The notes below the pieces were generated by a model. That model saw only the letters and a program-made list of their open reading frames with translations. It had not been told where the DNA came from and searched no databases. Both the position numbers and the translations under genes were made by a program. From Flavobacterium degerlachei (GTDB lineage: Bacteria; Bacteroidota; Bacteroidia; Flavobacteriales; Flavobacteriaceae), in contig NZ_FNMV01000002.1 in NCBI RefSeq assembly GCF_900106645.1, forward strand, positions 299,690 to 363,689: DNA of 64,000 bases, read 5' to 3'. Below are positions 57,134 through 64,000 of this stretch, one piece after another (positions within the stretch are counted from its first letter, which is position 1; every line of letters starts with the position of its first letter).

Positions 57134-57220
57134 AATATTTTTTTTGGGTTTCGTGTATTCGCATTTAGGAAGTGTTTAGTGTATGCAGCAGCGCCAATAA
57201 TAAAAATTGAAAATAAAAAA

Positions 57221-57250
57221 AATACCCAAATCGCTAAAGATGGGTATTTT
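57221..57250 (-). terminator. Terminator at the end of the curli locus
   Basis: AAATACCCA pairs with TGGGTATTT around a 12-base loop, with long T-tracts on the minus side. It lies 21 bases after the stop codon of the last gene of the curli locus. Confidence 0.75.
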
Positions 57251-57270
57251 TTTTGTGATAGAGTCTTAAA

Positions 57271-58752
57271 TTACTTCCACTCTGGCATAGAACCTCCAGC
57301 AAATAGTGTGGTACTTGTACCTCCGTTTAAAATACTTGCTTTTTGAACATCTTTAACCGAAATTCCGTCATTTGAAGTATTTGTAAAAATAACTTCTGCT
57401 TCATTTGGAGAAAACTTAACATCTAAATTATTAAAACCATTACTTTTCCCTGTTGCAAGTTCAGTCGAAATATTTGTTGATTTATCATATACAAATACTC
57501 GAGAGTCTAATCGTCTATAAGTTGAATTTTGGAAACCTGAAATATCTCTAGTATATACTATTTTTTGGTTGCTAATCGAAATATTCAAACCACTTACACC
57601 TCCATTTAACCCAGAAAGAACGGAATATAAAACTGTACCTGAAGTATCAATCACATATATTTCAACATTATATCCTGAATTATCATTTACTTTCAGTGCA
57701 ATTTGACTTCCATCCTGACTCCAATCACACTCGGATATAAATTTTCCATTCGGTGTTTGAAATATTTGAGCAAGACCACTTCCATTGGCATTTATGCGAT
57801 ACAATTTATCAAAGTTAGGATATATAATCTGACTCCCATTGGTACTCCAACAATAATTAACATGCTCCATATTAAAACCTGCAATTGCTATAGAACTAGT
57901 CACCTTAGATTTATTTGAACCATCAAGATTCATTGTGTATATCTGATTCTGAGAACCATCTGAGCTTATAAAAGCTATCTTATTGATCTGTAAATTTTTT
58001 CTTGGACGATAACTATTAACCTCAGGAGATGATAATTGCAATTCATTCCCGCTTTCATCAGCAGTAAAAATAACGTTATTGTTATTCTGTTGTTTTACAT
58101 ATAAAAATCTAGGATTTGGAAAAGCTAATGTTGTAAAACTATTTGTAACACTATTTGAAGAAGCATTTATCCCATCAGAAACTGAAACCTGCCAATAATA
58201 TTTAGTACTATAACTAAGGTCACTAATTTCAAGACTTGTTGTTTTGACATCTGAATACGTTTTAACAACGTCTGTTGTTCCATTTTTGACAGTCACTGTA
58301 TACGTTAACACATCAGATTCTTTATCAGTAGCAGTCCAAGTTAAATTCAATTTTAACGCTTGATTAGTAGCATTATTAGCTGGAGCTGTTAAAACAGGAA
58401 TTTCAGGTGGCTTATTATTTGCTGTAGACAACGTCATTTCAAATATAATTTGTGTTGTAATACCAGCTTTTATAACAGCTGGTTCAAATTTAGCTATATA
58501 ACCTTCTTTTTGAGCCTGAAAAGAATATTCTCCTACCAATATTTCTTCAAAGACAAAATACCCATCTTCATCAGTAAAATAAGTACTTGTAGTCGGGTTA
58601 GTTGAAACACGAGCATTTACAATAGGTTCAAATGATTCTGAATCAACGACCCTACCTTTTACTGTGCCTTTAGCATTTGAATCTAATTGTTCCTCGCTAC
58701 AAGAACTCAATATAAAAAAGCAGATAAATAATTTCACAACAATTTTTTTCAT
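57271..58752 (-). CDS. Curli-locus lipoprotein with regulatory-like, FN3 and TolB-like propeller domains
   Basis: A 493-residue lipoprotein (lipobox FILSSCSEE, Cys18). A carboxypeptidase-regulatory-like domain follows (about 28-105, GTVKGRVVDSESFEPIVNARV), then an FN3-like domain (about 112-205, PVLTAPANNATN...YYWQVSVSDG), then a TolB/WD40-like beta-propeller (about 212-493) with repeated DGS/NGS blades such as SSDGSQNQIYTMNLDGS and WSQDGSQIALKV. It is the last gene downstream of csgG, 67 bases away, before the locus terminator. The start is ATG at the lipoprotein signal. A role in binding or anchoring the amyloid at the surface is inference; no such curli component is known to me. Confidence 0.75.
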   Translation of the reverse strand: MKKIVVKLFICFFILSSCSEEQLDSNAKGTVKGRVVDSESFEPIVNARVSTNPTTSTYFTDEDGYFVFEEILVGEYSFQAQKEGYIAKFEPAVIKAGITTQIIFEMTLSTANNKPPEIPVLTAPANNATNQALKLNLTWTATDKESDVLTYTVTVKNGTTDVVKTYSDVKTTSLEISDLSYSTKYYWQVSVSDGINASSNSVTNSFTTLAFPNPRFLYVKQQNNNNVIFTADESGNELQLSSPEVNSYRPRKNLQINKIAFISSDGSQNQIYTMNLDGSNKSKVTSSIAIAGFNMEHVNYCWSTNGSQIIYPNFDKLYRINANGSGLAQIFQTPNGKFISECDWSQDGSQIALKVNDNSGYNVEIYVIDTSGTVLYSVLSGLNGGVSGLNISISNQKIVYTRDISGFQNSTYRRLDSRVFVYDKSTNISTELATGKSNGFNNLDVKFSPNEAEVIFTNTSNDGISVKDVQKASILNGGTSTTLFAGGSMPEWK

Positions 58753-58819
58753 CTTCAGATTATTTTGATAATTATACCAGCAATTAATTAAATATTTAAA
58801 TTTTATCATAGTACCAAAT

Positions 58820-60181
58820 TTACCTTTTACTTCTATTTGGGAAATAATAAGTCATCCCCAGTCCAAATCTCCAATAATAGTCATCTCTAATCCCAGTTTC
58901 AAAGTAGTCTAAATTATCTGAAAAATTCAAATTATGTTCCCCATATAACTTAAGCCCAAGTCTATCCGATACTAAATACTCAAATCCTAGCCCATATTGA
59001 ATTTTCAAACTTTTGTTTTCAAATTTTTTATTAAAATTCATACCTCCTCCAGCAAAAACATAAGGTGTTAATTGACTATTAGGACGGAAAATATATTCTA
59101 GATTTAAATCTAAAGAAGCAAATCCCTTTTTAGTAATGCTTTTATCTCCTAACCAAAAAGCATTTGAAGACGCACTGAAGTTGACATTTTGATTTAAAAA
59201 ATACTTAATCGCTCCTCTTATCATTGGTTCAGGGATGGGGTTTGGATAATCACCTTTCAAATAAGTTGCTCCAGCGCTACCTTCAATACCAACTCTACCT
59301 CTTTTTGTACTACTGCTTATTACAGTTTGTGCATCCGAACTAGTTTCAATTTCATCTCTATCGTAATTATCTACGAATGTTTTAACTTGACTTTCTGAAG
59401 CGTCTGCTTGCCAAATTTTATCTTTTATTCCATCTACAATCATTCCTTCCACAGCTTTCTCAATCGCCTCAGTAACGGCTAATTGTATCGGCTCATTTCT
59501 TGTAAAACCAGTTTCTACTTCTAGCAATCTCTTTATATTCACATACTTAAACAAGTTAGCATCAACACTTTGCGACAATATTGTTTTAGAAACGTAAACA
59601 GTGTTTAAAATCTTACCATTTGACGTAGAAACTAGTCGAAGGTAGATTGTAATTCTATCTTGTCTATATCTGGTAGAGGCTCCGGTCCCAAAATATCTAG
59701 CTCCAAATCCACCAGTAATTATATTAGAATCATATGACACTATACCTCCTTCTAATAAAACTCCAGCAAATAAAAGGGGGGTAAGTTGATTTTCTTTAGC
59801 ATCAGAATTGGATGCGTATTCTTGGCGAGTGGAACGGATAATATTTCTTTCATTCAAAAGGTTTCCTAAATTCTCTCTTTCAATAGGTATGAACCATTTC
59901 GAATCTCCCAATGCTTTAATTAAAATTGAAGTCGCACCTTGGGTAACAGCTGTGCTAAAAGTACTCCCTGACTCAACAGCTTTATATTGTCCCGTCTGGT
60001 CTTTAAACTTATAAACTCCTACGACAACAGGCTCTTTTGGCCTTGGTAGTTTTTTTAAAGAAGAATTTAACGAACTACTTTCACCAAAAGAAGCTTTTTC
60101 AAAACCAACTGGTTGGTTAAAATAAGCGGCGCAACTGGATAATAATAACACAATAAAAAAGCAGAAAACATTCTTAGTCAT
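58820..60181 (-). CDS. csgG: CsgG curli secretion channel with extra C-terminal beta-barrel domain
   Basis: A 453-residue lipoprotein (lipobox LLLSSCAAYF, Cys17). Residues about 45-270 align with E. coli CsgG: VVVGVYKFKDQTGQYK, STFSTAVTQGATSILIKAL, WFIPIERENLGNLLNERNII, GGFGARYFGTGAST and FTRNEPIQLAVTEAIE. CsgG forms the nonameric outer-membrane channel for curlin export. E. coli CsgG ends near residue 277; here an extra 150 or so residues form alternating beta-strands (about 300-453, ending YYWRFGLGMTYYF), like an OmpA-type or porin-like barrel. The constriction loop differs from E. coli (see findings). Confidence 0.87.
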   Translation of the reverse strand: MTKNVFCFFIVLLLSSCAAYFNQPVGFEKASFGESSSLNSSLKKLPRPKEPVVVGVYKFKDQTGQYKAVESGSTFSTAVTQGATSILIKALGDSKWFIPIERENLGNLLNERNIIRSTRQEYASNSDAKENQLTPLLFAGVLLEGGIVSYDSNIITGGFGARYFGTGASTRYRQDRITIYLRLVSTSNGKILNTVYVSKTILSQSVDANLFKYVNIKRLLEVETGFTRNEPIQLAVTEAIEKAVEGMIVDGIKDKIWQADASESQVKTFVDNYDRDEIETSSDAQTVISSSTKRGRVGIEGSAGATYLKGDYPNPIPEPMIRGAIKYFLNQNVNFSASSNAFWLGDKSITKKGFASLDLNLEYIFRPNSQLTPYVFAGGGMNFNKKFENKSLKIQYGLGFEYLVSDRLGLKLYGEHNLNFSDNLDYFETGIRDDYYWRFGLGMTYYFPNRSKR

Positions 60182-60259
60182 AGCTTGTAATTATTTATAA
60201 TTAATAATTTTGAATATTACATCAAAGGCGATTGTTCCATAAATATTTTAAAAAAAATA

Positions 60260-60673
60260 TTAATTTCCAGGAACTATCACTTGACTCTGTTCTCCAGTAT
60301 CTGTATCTAATATATCAACTACTAGCCCCAAATTAGACCGATAAATATCTATTGATAAACTTCCAAAAACATAAGAACCTTCAGTCAATCCGTCTGTACC
60401 AAATTGTGTCTGAAATAATGAACTCGACACTTGATTTAAAATTTGACTATTTAGATTTTCTTTAAATCTTTCCAACTCAGATTGCTGCCCGAAACTTAAA
60501 TCCTGTGTTTCTTTAAATTTATTTTGCGATTCAGCAGAACTTAACAACCATTGATAATTAAATGTATCTCCACCAAAAGCAGGATTTATAGGCTTATACA
60601 CTAAACTCTGAGCATTTCCAGAAAAGAAAATTCCAATAATAAAAATAATTGTCGCTACAATTTTCATATTCAT
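60260..60673 (-). CDS. csgF: CsgF curli nucleation/assembly factor
   Basis: A 137-residue exported protein with a signal peptide (about 1-21, cleavage near GNAQS). The mature N-terminus LVYKPINPAFGGDTFNYQWL matches the CsgF segment that plugs into the CsgG channel, with NPAFGG and the following LLSSAESQNKF helix as in E. coli. The C-terminal part (GLTEGSYVFGSLSIDIYRS) is beta-rich. It couples CsgG to the nucleator CsgB at the surface. Two nearby ATG codons (MNMKIV) leave the start uncertain by two residues. Confidence 0.85.
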   Translation of the reverse strand: MNMKIVATIIFIIGIFFSGNAQSLVYKPINPAFGGDTFNYQWLLSSAESQNKFKETQDLSFGQQSELERFKENLNSQILNQVSSSLFQTQFGTDGLTEGSYVFGSLSIDIYRSNLGLVVDILDTDTGEQSQVIVPGN

Positions 60674-60770
60674 TAATTTAGATATTAATTTTAATTTAAA
60701 AAATATAATACTGTTTTTACGAATCCATTGGAATCAAATTCCGTGTTTTAAAACTCAATTAATTCTGTTT

Positions 60771-61505
60771 TTAATATCGCGTTAAGTAAAGGGCTTGCTT
60801 TTCTAAATTTTTAAAATATTTAAAAACATTATCCGAAGAGACTGTTGCCATATATTTCAAAAACTCATCATCTGGTCTTGCAATAAACTCATCAATAACA
60901 TCTCCATTAACACTAACAATTATCTTGGTAGTTATACCAACTGTTAATTCTTCTCCCACACTAACTACTTTATTTGAATTTATTTTTAACTTTGAATACT
61001 CATAATAAAAATAATCATAAAATTCATTTCCTAACCTAGTTTTAGTCTCATTAGCTACAATACCTATCATTTCAAGACCGTCCTTAGGCTTAACAACACT
61101 AACTTTAGATTCTTCATCTCCTCCAACTACGACTCTGTCTTTTCCTATTATAACATCGTTTTCATCATAAATTAATAACAATAATATTATTTGATCATCT
61201 TTATTAAAATTAATTTGCGTTTTAGAAAGATTGACTTTTTGAATTGGCTTCAATGTAACACGCCCATCTTGCGAATTTTTTGATTTATTAGAATTTGATT
61301 TATTACTTCTAAAGACAGTTAACTTAAATGAGATGTTTTTAAATTCTGAATCTAAATTTTCAGCAGTACCAATTATTGTTAGCATGTTTTCAACTTGTTC
61401 AACATTAATTTTGGCTTTTACTTCCTTATTGCTTTCCTGAGAAAAGCCAACTGAGCAACTCAGTAAGAAAAATAAAAGATAAAAATATAATTTATCGTTT
61501 TTCAT
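60771..61505 (-). CDS. csgE: CsgE secretion factor with extra N-terminal beta domain
   Basis: A 244-residue exported protein with a signal peptide (about 1-23). The C-terminal part (about 145-244) matches CsgE: GIVANETKTRLGNEFYDYFY, TTKIIVSVNGDVIDEF, DDEFLKYMATVSSDNVFKYF. CsgE caps CsgG and guides subunits into it. The N-terminal part (about 25-140) is a beta-sandwich-like segment that E. coli CsgE lacks. Its pattern (FKLTVFRSNKSNSNKSKNSQ, then LSKTQINFNKDDQIILLLLI) recalls the CsgC/CsgH amyloid-inhibitor fold, which is inference. It begins three bases after the csgB-like gene ends. Confidence 0.8.
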   Translation of the reverse strand: MKNDKLYFYLLFFLLSCSVGFSQESNKEVKAKINVEQVENMLTIIGTAENLDSEFKNISFKLTVFRSNKSNSNKSKNSQDGRVTLKPIQKVNLSKTQINFNKDDQIILLLLIYDENDVIIGKDRVVVGGDEESKVSVVKPKDGLEMIGIVANETKTRLGNEFYDYFYYEYSKLKINSNKVVSVGEELTVGITTKIIVSVNGDVIDEFIARPDDEFLKYMATVSSDNVFKYFKNLEKQALYLTRY

Positions 61506-61508
61506 AAC

Positions 61509-62003
61509 TTAATGATTAAAAATATAAATAGTTCCCGAATTTCCTTTTTGATTAATTATCAAATTTTTTGAGATAGAGTTAGAACCATTATTATAAATTT
61601 TTAAATTATTTCCGTTTTGATTAATTGTCATATTAGATTCTATATAACTATTAGAAGAGTAATCACTCACAAAATTATTATTTCCTGATTGAAGAACATT
61701 TTGCACTACAGCAGAGCTTTTTTTATAGATATCTACGTTATTATTATTTCCATATTGATCTACATCTACCTTAGAATTTGAACTTTTAATATAGATATCA
61801 GAATAATTGCCAGCACCAACTTGCTTTAAATTAACCGAGTTACTATTAATTAATTGATTACTACTATTTTGCAATAAAAAATTATTTCCTGAAATATAAT
61901 TAGTATATAGCGTATTTAATTGGATGTTTTCCTCTTGTGCTACTAGATAGCCAGAACAGAAAAACAAACCTATTAACAAGCAAAAATCTTTAATTGTTCT
62001 CAT
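61509..62003 (-). CDS. csgB: CsgB-like minor curlin subunit
   Basis: A 164-residue exported protein with a signal peptide (about 1-22, cleavage near LVAQE). Curlin-type repeats are spaced about 22-24 residues apart, with glutamines at 61, 83, 105, 129 and 152 in QVG, QYG, QSG, QNG and QKG, each followed by an Asn/Ser-rich turn. It is shorter and more irregular than the CsgA-like protein and lies next to csgE, so it is the likely nucleator. It ends three bases before csgE begins. Confidence 0.78.
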   Translation of the reverse strand: MRTIKDFCLLIGLFFCSGYLVAQEENIQLNTLYTNYISGNNFLLQNSSNQLINSNSVNLKQVGAGNYSDIYIKSSNSKVDVDQYGNNNNVDIYKKSSAVVQNVLQSGNNNFVSDYSSNSYIESNMTINQNGNNLKIYNNGSNSISKNLIINQKGNSGTIYIFNH

Positions 62004-62140
62004 GATATTTTTTTTTATAAAAATTAAAAATAATACTACATGAAGATATTCGAAAAATTAAAAGATGAGTACATAAAAATATACTCAAAAACACCTAACC
62101 TCTCTAAAATAAAATCTTAACCTAAATCTTAGTAAAAAAA

Positions 62141-62170
62141 AAGATGGAATCATACAACTCCATCTTTTTT
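62141..62170 (-). terminator. Terminator between the csgA-like and csgB-like genes
   Basis: A stem of AAAAAAGATGGA / TCCATCTTTTTT followed on the minus strand by a long T-tract. It lies 17 bases after the csgA-like stop codon and would end most transcripts there, with partial readthrough into csgB. Confidence 0.75.
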
Positions 62171-62186
62171 TTATAACTATTAAACT

Positions 62187-62939
62187 TTAGTTTGTTTGCA
62201 TAATATAACCAGTGTTCATAGCGCCAGTTTGAAGCACAGTGCTCATATGATCATTACCTAACTGCATTACGTTTGCTGTATTACCATTATTAGTTTGGGT
62301 AATAATAGATGTATTATCCCATCCCATTTGCAACGTATTAGCTGTATTGTTACGACCTGTTTGATTTACATCAGATTCATTATTCCAACCCATTTGTCCA
62401 GTGTTAGCAGTATTATCGCGACCTCTTTGGTACACTTCAGAATCATTACCTATTCCTACCTGTATGGTTAAGGCGCTATTATCTCTTCCTCTTTGGGCTG
62501 TTATTGATTCATTTCCGCCCCCAAATTGCATAGTAGTCGCCTCATTATTTCTTCCATGTTGATCTATAGTAGCGTCGTTAACCCATCCAGCTTGACCAAT
62601 AACAGCATCATTGCTTCTTCCATGTTGATCTATATCTGCAGAGTTAAATGCTCCTACTTGCCCTACGTAAGCATCATTACCTCTACCATATTGATCAATA
62701 GTGGCTAAATCTCTAAAGCCACCCTGATTTACATCAGCTTCATTGCTTCTTCCCTGTTGATTTACAAAAGCTAGATCACCATTTCCTAATTGCAACACGT
62801 CTGAATCATTCATGTACCCCACTTGCAGAACCGCAGCGCCATTATAATCACCACTCTGAGTTAATGTACTCACATTACTTTGTCCGTAGCTTAAAGAAGC
62901 TAATAGCATCGCTGAGACGCTTAAAATTACTTTTTTCAT
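62187..62939 (-). CDS. csgA: CsgA-like major curlin subunit with long repeat array
   Basis: A 250-residue exported protein with a signal peptide (KKVILSVSAMLLASLSYGQ). The mature part is about 21 tandem units of 11 residues of the form A-x-x-x-Q-x-G-x-x-N-x. They alternate in type: one has QHGR-N-D/E (ADIDQHGRSND, ATIDQHGRNNE), the other QAGW/QMGW (AVIGQAGWVND, ANTLQMGWDNT). Two units make one 22-residue curlin repeat, so about 10 full repeats against five in E. coli CsgA. The ATG at the signal peptide is chosen over a longer frame, whose extension lies in the mRNA leader. Confidence 0.85.
   Translation of the reverse strand: MKKVILSVSAMLLASLSYGQSNVSTLTQSGDYNGAAVLQVGYMNDSDVLQLGNGDLAFVNQQGRSNEADVNQGGFRDLATIDQYGRGNDAYVGQVGAFNSADIDQHGRSNDAVIGQAGWVNDATIDQHGRNNEATTMQFGGGNESITAQRGRDNSALTIQVGIGNDSEVYQRGRDNTANTGQMGWNNESDVNQTGRNNTANTLQMGWDNTSIITQTNNGNTANVMQLGNDHMSTVLQTGAMNTGYIMQTN
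62190..62880 (-). repeat. Tandem curlin repeat array in csgA-like gene
   Basis: A tandem array of 33-bp half-repeats forming about 66-bp units, coding for the alternating QHGR and QxGW types. The DNA repeats are diverged (many synonymous and conservative changes), so the array is old rather than freshly expanded. Confidence 0.75.
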
Positions 62940-63076
62940 AATAAATATATTTAATTGGTTATTAATACAAACTATTATGTAGGTTTTAAAAAAGCGATTT
63001 GGGAACCTCCTTTTCATCATAATAAATAACAAGATTTTTAGTATAAATACATACCCCTTATTTGATTATTACATTT

Positions 63077-63108
63077 CAAAGATAGAAAACATATCTTGAA
63101 AAAACCAA
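63077..63108 (-). promoter_or_regulatory. csgA promoter (-33 TTG and -7 TATCTTTG)
   Basis: On the minus strand TTG and TATCTTTG are separated by 21 bases, fitting the Bacteroidota -33/-7 promoter. Transcription would start near 63071, about 130 bases before the csgA ATG, leaving room for leader regulation. This is the best-formed promoter in the window. Confidence 0.65.
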
Positions 63109-63846: not shown

Positions 63847-64000
63847 TGTCCCGTCCTGAAATAGCGATACACAAAAAGTATCCTAATGGAAAAACATGAA
63901 GAAACACGCTATGTTAAGCGAACTCAAAAAGATTACTCAATGTCTTTTAAATTACAAATTGTTCAAGAAATTGAACGAGGAGAACTTACAGTTACGAAAT
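63847..64000 (+). mobile_element. Left end of an IS3-family insertion sequence (partial)
   Basis: The element appears to begin with TGTCCCGTCCTGAAATAGCG, a terminal-inverted-repeat-like end starting TG, followed after about 40 bases by a transposase reading frame. It runs off the window, so the right end and target duplication cannot be seen. Confidence 0.65.
63886..64000 (+). CDS. IS3-family transposase OrfA (5' part)
   Basis: The first 38 codons of a transposase are present: MEKHEETRYVKRTQKDYSMS then FKLQIVQEIERGELTVTK, cut off by the window. This is the start of the helix-turn-helix domain that binds IS ends (IS3/IS150-type OrfA). The ATG lies 39 bases inside the IS end. The protein would normally be followed by OrfB, made by frameshift. 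Confidence 0.72.
   Translation, partial: MEKHEETRYVKRTQKDYSMSFKLQIVQEIERGELTVTK

Follow-up and report, generated by a model that had tools for sequence, protein, structure and literature searches.

We describe here the curli locus of a 64,000-nucleotide stretch of Flavobacterium degerlachei DNA (contig NZ_FNMV01000002.1, positions 299,690 to 363,689 of the forward strand; the whole stretch is hereafter called the window) and in particular its csgE gene. The product of this gene is a two-domain protein, composed of a predicted CsgC/CsgH-like domain followed by CsgE. Domains of the CsgC/CsgH type are known amyloid inhibitors. Although an earlier report had this group without such a chaperone, it is probably tethered here to the export pore. 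In 40 other Flavobacterium genomes the same gene is divided into two frames, always at one same place, which carries a run of A's. The window csgE product is likely to be a tethered anti-amyloid chaperone at the CsgG pore, and the split relatives are likely to produce both a free and a tethered form by slippage. We lean towards the view that the ratio of free to tethered chaperone is set by programmed slippage at a ten-A run in a single csgH-csgE gene, that this arrangement has two or more independent origins, and that it is dispensed with in some lineages, including that of the window, which keep one frame. What is new here is the content of the csgE gene, not its order in the locus. The parts of the gene, in window coordinates, are the following.

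60771..61505, minus strand: csgE gene, a single open frame encoding the fused CsgC/CsgH-like and CsgE protein of 244 amino acids
61125..61421, minus strand: predicted CsgC/CsgH-type domain, residues 29-127
61065..61124, minus strand: linker, residues 128-147, modelled with low confidence at 132-146 and free of any A-run; site of the oligo-A frame junction in 40 relatives
60774..61064, minus strand: CsgE domain, residues 148-244, a member of the CsgE family

The predicted structure of residues 29-127 has the seven-stranded CsgC/CsgH fold. A Foldseek search of the PDB with this model gave CsgH as the best match (Rhodopseudomonas palustris CsgH, 2N59) and CsgC as the second. Against the NCBIfam CsgH profile, which has a cut-off of 35 bits, the window csgE product scores 25.1 bits, while the split relatives L061 and L064 score 31.6 (below the cut-off) and 38 bits (above it). 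Stand-alone genes for the domain in three deeper relatives, L097, L105 and L113, score 61.6, 55.5 and 56.1 bits, respectively. In these three the domain gene adjoins the curlin genes, and CsgE has no match to the domain. We compared 53 loci, each picked for holding CsgE or CsgF. As searched with a profile of our own, the domain is fused to CsgE in 33 of them, is part of a split gene in two (L061 and L064), is separate in three and was found in none of the remaining 15; all 16 family and order loci have the fusion. A search of the whole assembly gave no second CsgH-profile match, the csgE gene itself being the only one, and hence no stand-alone CsgH. There was no Pfam CsgC/CsgH match in CsgE of L095, L096 and L099 (L096 is retained as a row of A1). 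A LysM domain lies 5' of the CsgE domain, above the cut-off, in L100 (6548-7297), L103, L108, L109 and L111; it is just under the cut-off in L104 and absent in L107. Since LysM stands in front of CsgE in some distant relatives of the same phylum, the N-terminal partner of CsgE, CsgH-like or LysM, varies between lineages.

The genus domains were compared in 88 sequences, namely 40 split, 47 fused and that of the window (four of the 52 fused genomes were left out). Cysteines are absent from 85 of the 88; no domain has two or more and none has CxC. By the disulphide patterns that distinguish the two families (PMC4838910), the domain is neither CsgC proper nor CsgH proper. The stretch aligned to strands 3-4 (window residues 56-85) has a positive net charge in 85 of the 88, as counted from the sequence and not from a surface calculation. 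CsgH-like subfamilies in Bacteroidetes were noted by Taylor et al. 2016 (PMC4838910), and some short Flavobacterium proteins already bear the name CsgH at NCBI. The word 'fused' is absent from the main text of that paper, and both 'fused' and 'fusion' from the main text of the 2012 survey of curli systems (PMC3521004). No report of a CsgH-CsgE fusion or of a csgE frame junction was found in titles and abstracts of the open-access PubMed Central (PMC) literature.

A profile search of 398 genomes of the genus gave matches in 93, of which G557 was dropped (a weak match, E 1e-5, in a 563-residue frame). The 92 remaining genomes comprise 52 with one open frame and the 40 with the divided gene. In all 40, the two frames overlap shortly and the overlap contains an oligo-A run, of ten A's (A10) in 39 genomes and of twelve (A12) in one; every run at the junction is thus at least nine A's long, the length taken as the mark of a transcriptional slippage gene. 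The phase of the run is identical in all of them and the base after it is always G. The upstream frame stops 0.3-4.3 codons past the run in 39 of the 40 and 10.3 codons past it in L064. The CsgE frame lies at -1 in the A10 genomes and at +1 in the A12 genome. The latter is L159 (G733), which thus has the opposite frame shift, and its near twin L158 has A10. Among 76 named genome records, which partly represent the same assemblies, 47 are split, and all 47 have A10; F. johnsoniae CI04, F. hibernum and F. frigoris are among these. The named records with a fused gene include 11 whose linker contains nine or more A's (three with A11, four with A10 and four with A9) and 18 without. In the 52 fused genomes of the genus, a linker run of this length occurs in eight and is missing in 44, including the window, whose csgE is one continuous frame without any run of nine or more A's. 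Sequencing error is an unlikely source of the split, because the run and its phase recur in 40 genomes and short proteins from genomes and metagenomes end alike: among the 120 short-form database relatives listed (of 215), 117 end in KKK followed by 1-4 residues, which matches A10 in this frame.

In 119,778 nucleotides of the csgF, csgG and lipoprotein frames of the same loci, no run of ten or more A's was found, while A9 occurs three times and A8 16 times. Lysine columns that are conserved elsewhere in both halves always mix AAA and AAG (none of 11 is codon-invariant), and only two of 30 columns with an invariant residue are codon-invariant. Nine of the 40 split genomes were scanned on both strands for ten or more A's with a G behind them; each genome has 14-25 such sites, compared with 6-21 for the backwards control; the forward pattern is the commoner in these genomes, with equality in one. 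The median ratio of nonsynonymous to synonymous substitution rates (dN/dS) in the 40 split genomes is 0.118 for the CsgH half and 0.068 for the CsgE half, and in 47 fused genomes (five of the 52 were left out) 0.102 and 0.071, respectively. As judged from these ratios, both halves are under purifying selection in the split genomes.

The history of the split was examined on a CsgF and CsgG tree, built with a quick method and with branch support from the Shimodaira-Hasegawa-like approximate likelihood ratio test (SH-aLRT); L065 has 33% of its columns filled, and the outgroup does not form one clade. A clade of 44 rows (support 99) holds 39 split genomes, four fused genomes with the run and one without. 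The remaining split genome, L151, is found in the window's own clade of 29 rows (support 99), beside the fused L143 (support 99). The CsgH and CsgE halves of L151 resemble fused genes most closely (68% and 67% identity, respectively), the best split matches being at 42% and 49%. The fused L191 was counted as having no run, since its linker A10 lies elsewhere. The tree requires a minimum of five changes between split and fused. The A10 device thus arose at least twice, once inside the window's clade, because L151 sits apart from the other 39 split genomes and its sequences are nearest those of fused genes.

We propose the following mechanism. In Escherichia coli, CsgE is reported to cap CsgG as a nonamer (PMC6050966). 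By analogy, the fusion protein, which is predicted to be exported to the periplasm, would assemble on the CsgG pore through its CsgE part, and several CsgH-like domains would be held at the pore entrance, where they would keep curlin subunits unfolded until passage. In the split relatives, expression without a slip would yield the CsgH-like chaperone on its own, whereas the tethered form would come from slippage at the run, by RNA polymerase or, less probably, by the ribosome. The run would thus determine how much of the chaperone is free and how much is tethered. The lineage of the window would have a hard-wired, always-tethered version. We infer for this purpose that the domain inhibits amyloid formation, that CsgE here too forms a ring on CsgG, and that slipping at the run is programmed. 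Slippage is more likely to be transcriptional than ribosomal, because ten A's are kept where the heptamer needs six, the A12 genome requires the opposite shift, and there is no consensus fold downstream. The dnaX genes with A9 and A10 runs are described as precedents for transcriptional slippage (PMC3711429, PMC5009743).

Two observations weigh against slippage of RNA polymerase at a fixed run: the region after the run folds better than controls, and three genomes with an in-frame A11 show that run length can change. The former bears on a -1 ribosomal frameshift, which would use the run as the site A_AAA_AAG. In the A10 genomes the run closes with AAA AAG in the zero frame, and CsgE is encoded in the -1 frame. 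The 60 nucleotides after the run are more folded than controls from the same genes (mean z -1.45, compared with -0.19 and -0.09; z below -2 in 10, 2 and 2 of 40) and than the corresponding region of 50 fused genes without a run, five of which belong to other genera (mean z of -1.29 for the split and -0.60 for the fused genes, p 0.005). Nevertheless, alifold gave no consensus structure (energy 0 on ungapped anchored windows), and neither the four surplus A's nor the A12 genome suits a heptamer. Flavobacterium ribosomes are reported to make little use of Shine-Dalgarno pairing, although prfB frameshifting occurs there (PMC8710568); a Shine-Dalgarno-like stretch is found upstream in 16 of the 40 split genes. 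We consider a ribosomal shift unlikely, at perhaps one chance in a few. The variable length, seen in the A11 genomes L222, L244 and L246, would also be expected if the run were a phase-variation switch, in which slippage of DNA replication toggles the CsgE half and most isolates were caught in the off state. A survey of frame transitions mentions phase variation as a possible result of poly-A/T runs, with many of its clusters being surface or secretory proteins (PMC3711429). However, 39 of 40 and 47 of 47 split genes have exactly ten A's, rather than lengths spread over 8-14 (in-frame lengths fall outside these counts by definition). Moreover, the same A10 arose independently in L151, and the downstream half is under the same degree of constraint in split as in fused genes. 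A switch therefore seems improbable.

It is more doubtful still that the gene has simply undergone fission, so that ribosomes would re-initiate past the CsgH stop and translate the CsgE half from a start codon of its own. The run and this stop are only a few codons apart, which is close enough for coupling, and in 13 of the 40 genes a potential start codon precedes the CsgE domain, nine of them ATG. But the downstream frame has no ATG, GTG or TTG there in the other 27 (no ATG in 31), the product would probably lack a signal peptide although CsgE acts in the periplasm, and an A-run would be needless. Crude hydropathy separates the two halves only partly, the minimum for the N-terminal half being 1.93 and the median and maximum for the C-terminal half 1.54 and 2.44. 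A different objection concerns the N-terminal domain, which might be unrelated, an Ig-like module such as a docking domain, with no anti-amyloid role. Ig-like folds are common, the window scores fall under the cut-offs and the cysteines are absent. Set against this are the fold and profile matches, of which CsgH and CsgC are the best, the stand-alone versions above the CsgH cut-off beside curlin genes, and the positive strand 3-4 stretch, which is kept. An unrelated module is therefore a poor candidate.

If programmed slippage at the ten-A run is correct, it would, as far as our searches of open-access PMC show, be the first case of recoding in functional-amyloid assembly, and a testable case of programmed slippage that tunes a chaperone ratio. 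The domain within csgE would explain why the curli systems of Flavobacteriales seemed to lack a periplasmic anti-amyloid chaperone. The fused form would be a natural tethered chaperone-gate protein, in which the safety of amyloid subunits before export could be studied. Annotation pipelines would treat each split gene as two, and the CsgE half would become a short frame lacking an export signal; the CsgH half does appear in the database as a protein of its own.

The window domain and the run could be compared with several known systems. The alphaproteobacterial CsgH of R. palustris (2N59) shares the fold and the profile, and stand-alone versions exist in the three deeper relatives, but the window domain has no cysteines and is fused to CsgE. 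Slippage in Thermus dnaX (A9) and in the ten-A dnaX clusters of GeneTack likewise involves an oligo-A run, two products and a nearby stop; the gene and the purpose are different, and here slippage is predicted for the split relatives, which carry the run, and not for the window. The -1 frameshift of E. coli dnaX has the same heptamer, A_AAA_AAG, which is in the same zero frame in 39 of the 40 split genomes, but the split genes keep ten A's and no conserved downstream hairpin was found.

The curli locus itself occupies the minus strand from 63.1 to 57.2 kb. As the preliminary description had stated, six genes lie there, with family matches found for all. Curlin-repeat subunits, CsgE, CsgF and CsgG all score above their Pfam cut-offs, which identifies the locus as a curli (type VIII secretion) system. 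Besides csgE, the genes and sites are as follows.

62187..62939, minus strand: csgA-like major curlin, 250 amino acids (Curlin_rpt E 4.7e-37, 10 curlin-repeat stretches)
61509..62003, minus strand: csgB-like curlin, 164 amino acids (Curlin_rpt E 7.7e-6, 1 curlin-repeat stretch)
60260..60673, minus strand: csgF, 137 amino acids (Pfam CsgF E 2.9e-38)
58820..60181, minus strand: csgG, 453 amino acids (Pfam CsgG E 7.6e-65)
58844..59293, minus strand: predicted C-terminal 8-stranded barrel domain of CsgG, residues 297-446 (OMP_b-brl 28.6 bits, cut-off 28.7; model)
57271..58752, minus strand: lipoprotein (CarboxypepD_reg above its cut-off; Fn3 and TolB-propeller matches below theirs)
63077..63108, minus strand: promoter-like site TTG-N21-TAnnTTTG upstream of csgA (sequence pattern)
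62134..62168, minus strand: terminator-like hairpin and T-run between csgA and csgB (-13.6 kcal/mol)
57213..57250, minus strand: terminator-like hairpin and T-run 3' of the lipoprotein gene (read by eye)

Curlin repeats, searched over the whole assembly, are limited to the csgA-like and csgB-like genes of this locus. The preliminary description was also right that no csgD-like regulator is present, since no LuxR/GerE match lies within the window; the nearest one on the contig is 6.3 kb to the left, in a 939-residue frame. Its statement that csgC/csgH is missing holds for a stand-alone gene, but not for the domain, which is fused to CsgE; this fusion is the important part of the extra domains that it had noticed. 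It had also called the gene order non-standard. The order of curlin, csgE, csgF, csgG and lipoprotein, which it proposed to look for in other Flavobacterium genomes, is found in 18 of 19 loci of the genus, L065 being cut by a contig end after csgF, and 16 of the 19 have a recognisable second small curlin gene 5' of csgE. In the family and order, each of the 16 loci L079-L094 keeps csgE-csgF-csgG-lipoprotein. The 2012 survey (PMC3521004) reports all Bacteroidetes genera as lacking csgC, and as lacking csgD except Spirosoma, and describes single-operon curli layouts elsewhere. The gene order is ordinary for its group, because it recurs in genus and family and the absence of csgC and csgD was published in 2012, and it was accordingly rejected as a novelty. 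Curli are patchy in these taxa: of the genomes searched, 15 of 61 in the genus have CsgF, 11 of 60 in the family have the csgE product and 29 of 296 in the phylum have CsgE.

The csgBAC/csgDEFG system of E. coli shares with the window the CsgA/B repeats, CsgE, CsgF, CsgG and a CsgC-fold domain. In E. coli the genes form two divergent operons; in the window they lie on one strand in their own order, without csgD. The CsgC-type domain is fused to CsgE, CsgG has the extra barrel, and there are an additional lipoprotein and a terminator-like hairpin after csgA. The single-operon csgBAEFG curli of Pseudoalteromonas and the Bacteroidetes systems (Dueholm 2012) likewise have all genes but csgD in one run; the survey reports no csgC in Bacteroidetes, and a predicted CsgC-type domain is found here in csgE. 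In all genus, family and order loci that reach that far, a lipoprotein with CarboxypepD_reg lies 3' of csgG; it is perhaps a surface anchor.

The CsgG model has eight strands at residues 297-446, with a mean predicted local distance difference test score (pLDDT) of 72 for the whole model. NspA and OmpA are the closest Foldseek matches of this barrel after CsgG chains, and each of the 51 loci that have CsgG encodes it in one frame with the core. If CsgG is a nonamer here, as many as nine extra small barrels would surround the pore.

The TTG-N21-TAnnTTTG pattern, a Bacteroidetes-type promoter consensus, lies near the first curlin gene in only five of 19 genus loci, including the window's (0.7 expected from shuffles), and a conserved promoter was rejected on this ground. 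Sixteen of the 19 loci have a terminator-like hairpin behind their last large curlin gene, a count made without a chance control. Candidates for the promoter and the terminator with which the preliminary description bounded the locus can both be seen; a pattern scan of the window listed neither the csgA promoter-like site nor either hairpin, and its totals, 37 promoter-like sites (40.3 in shuffles) and 3 terminator-like ones (2.6), are no higher than chance. The same description had the six genes running between this promoter and this terminator; the hairpin between csgA and csgB had been missed. The picture of a single operon may be too simple, because such a hairpin follows csgA in the 16 genus loci, and it could favour an excess of csgA. 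The right edge of the window is the contig end, and the region upstream of csgA can be read only to there. An open frame, whose first part occupies 63886-64000, runs off this end and presumably resembles the OrfA of an IS3-type transposase.
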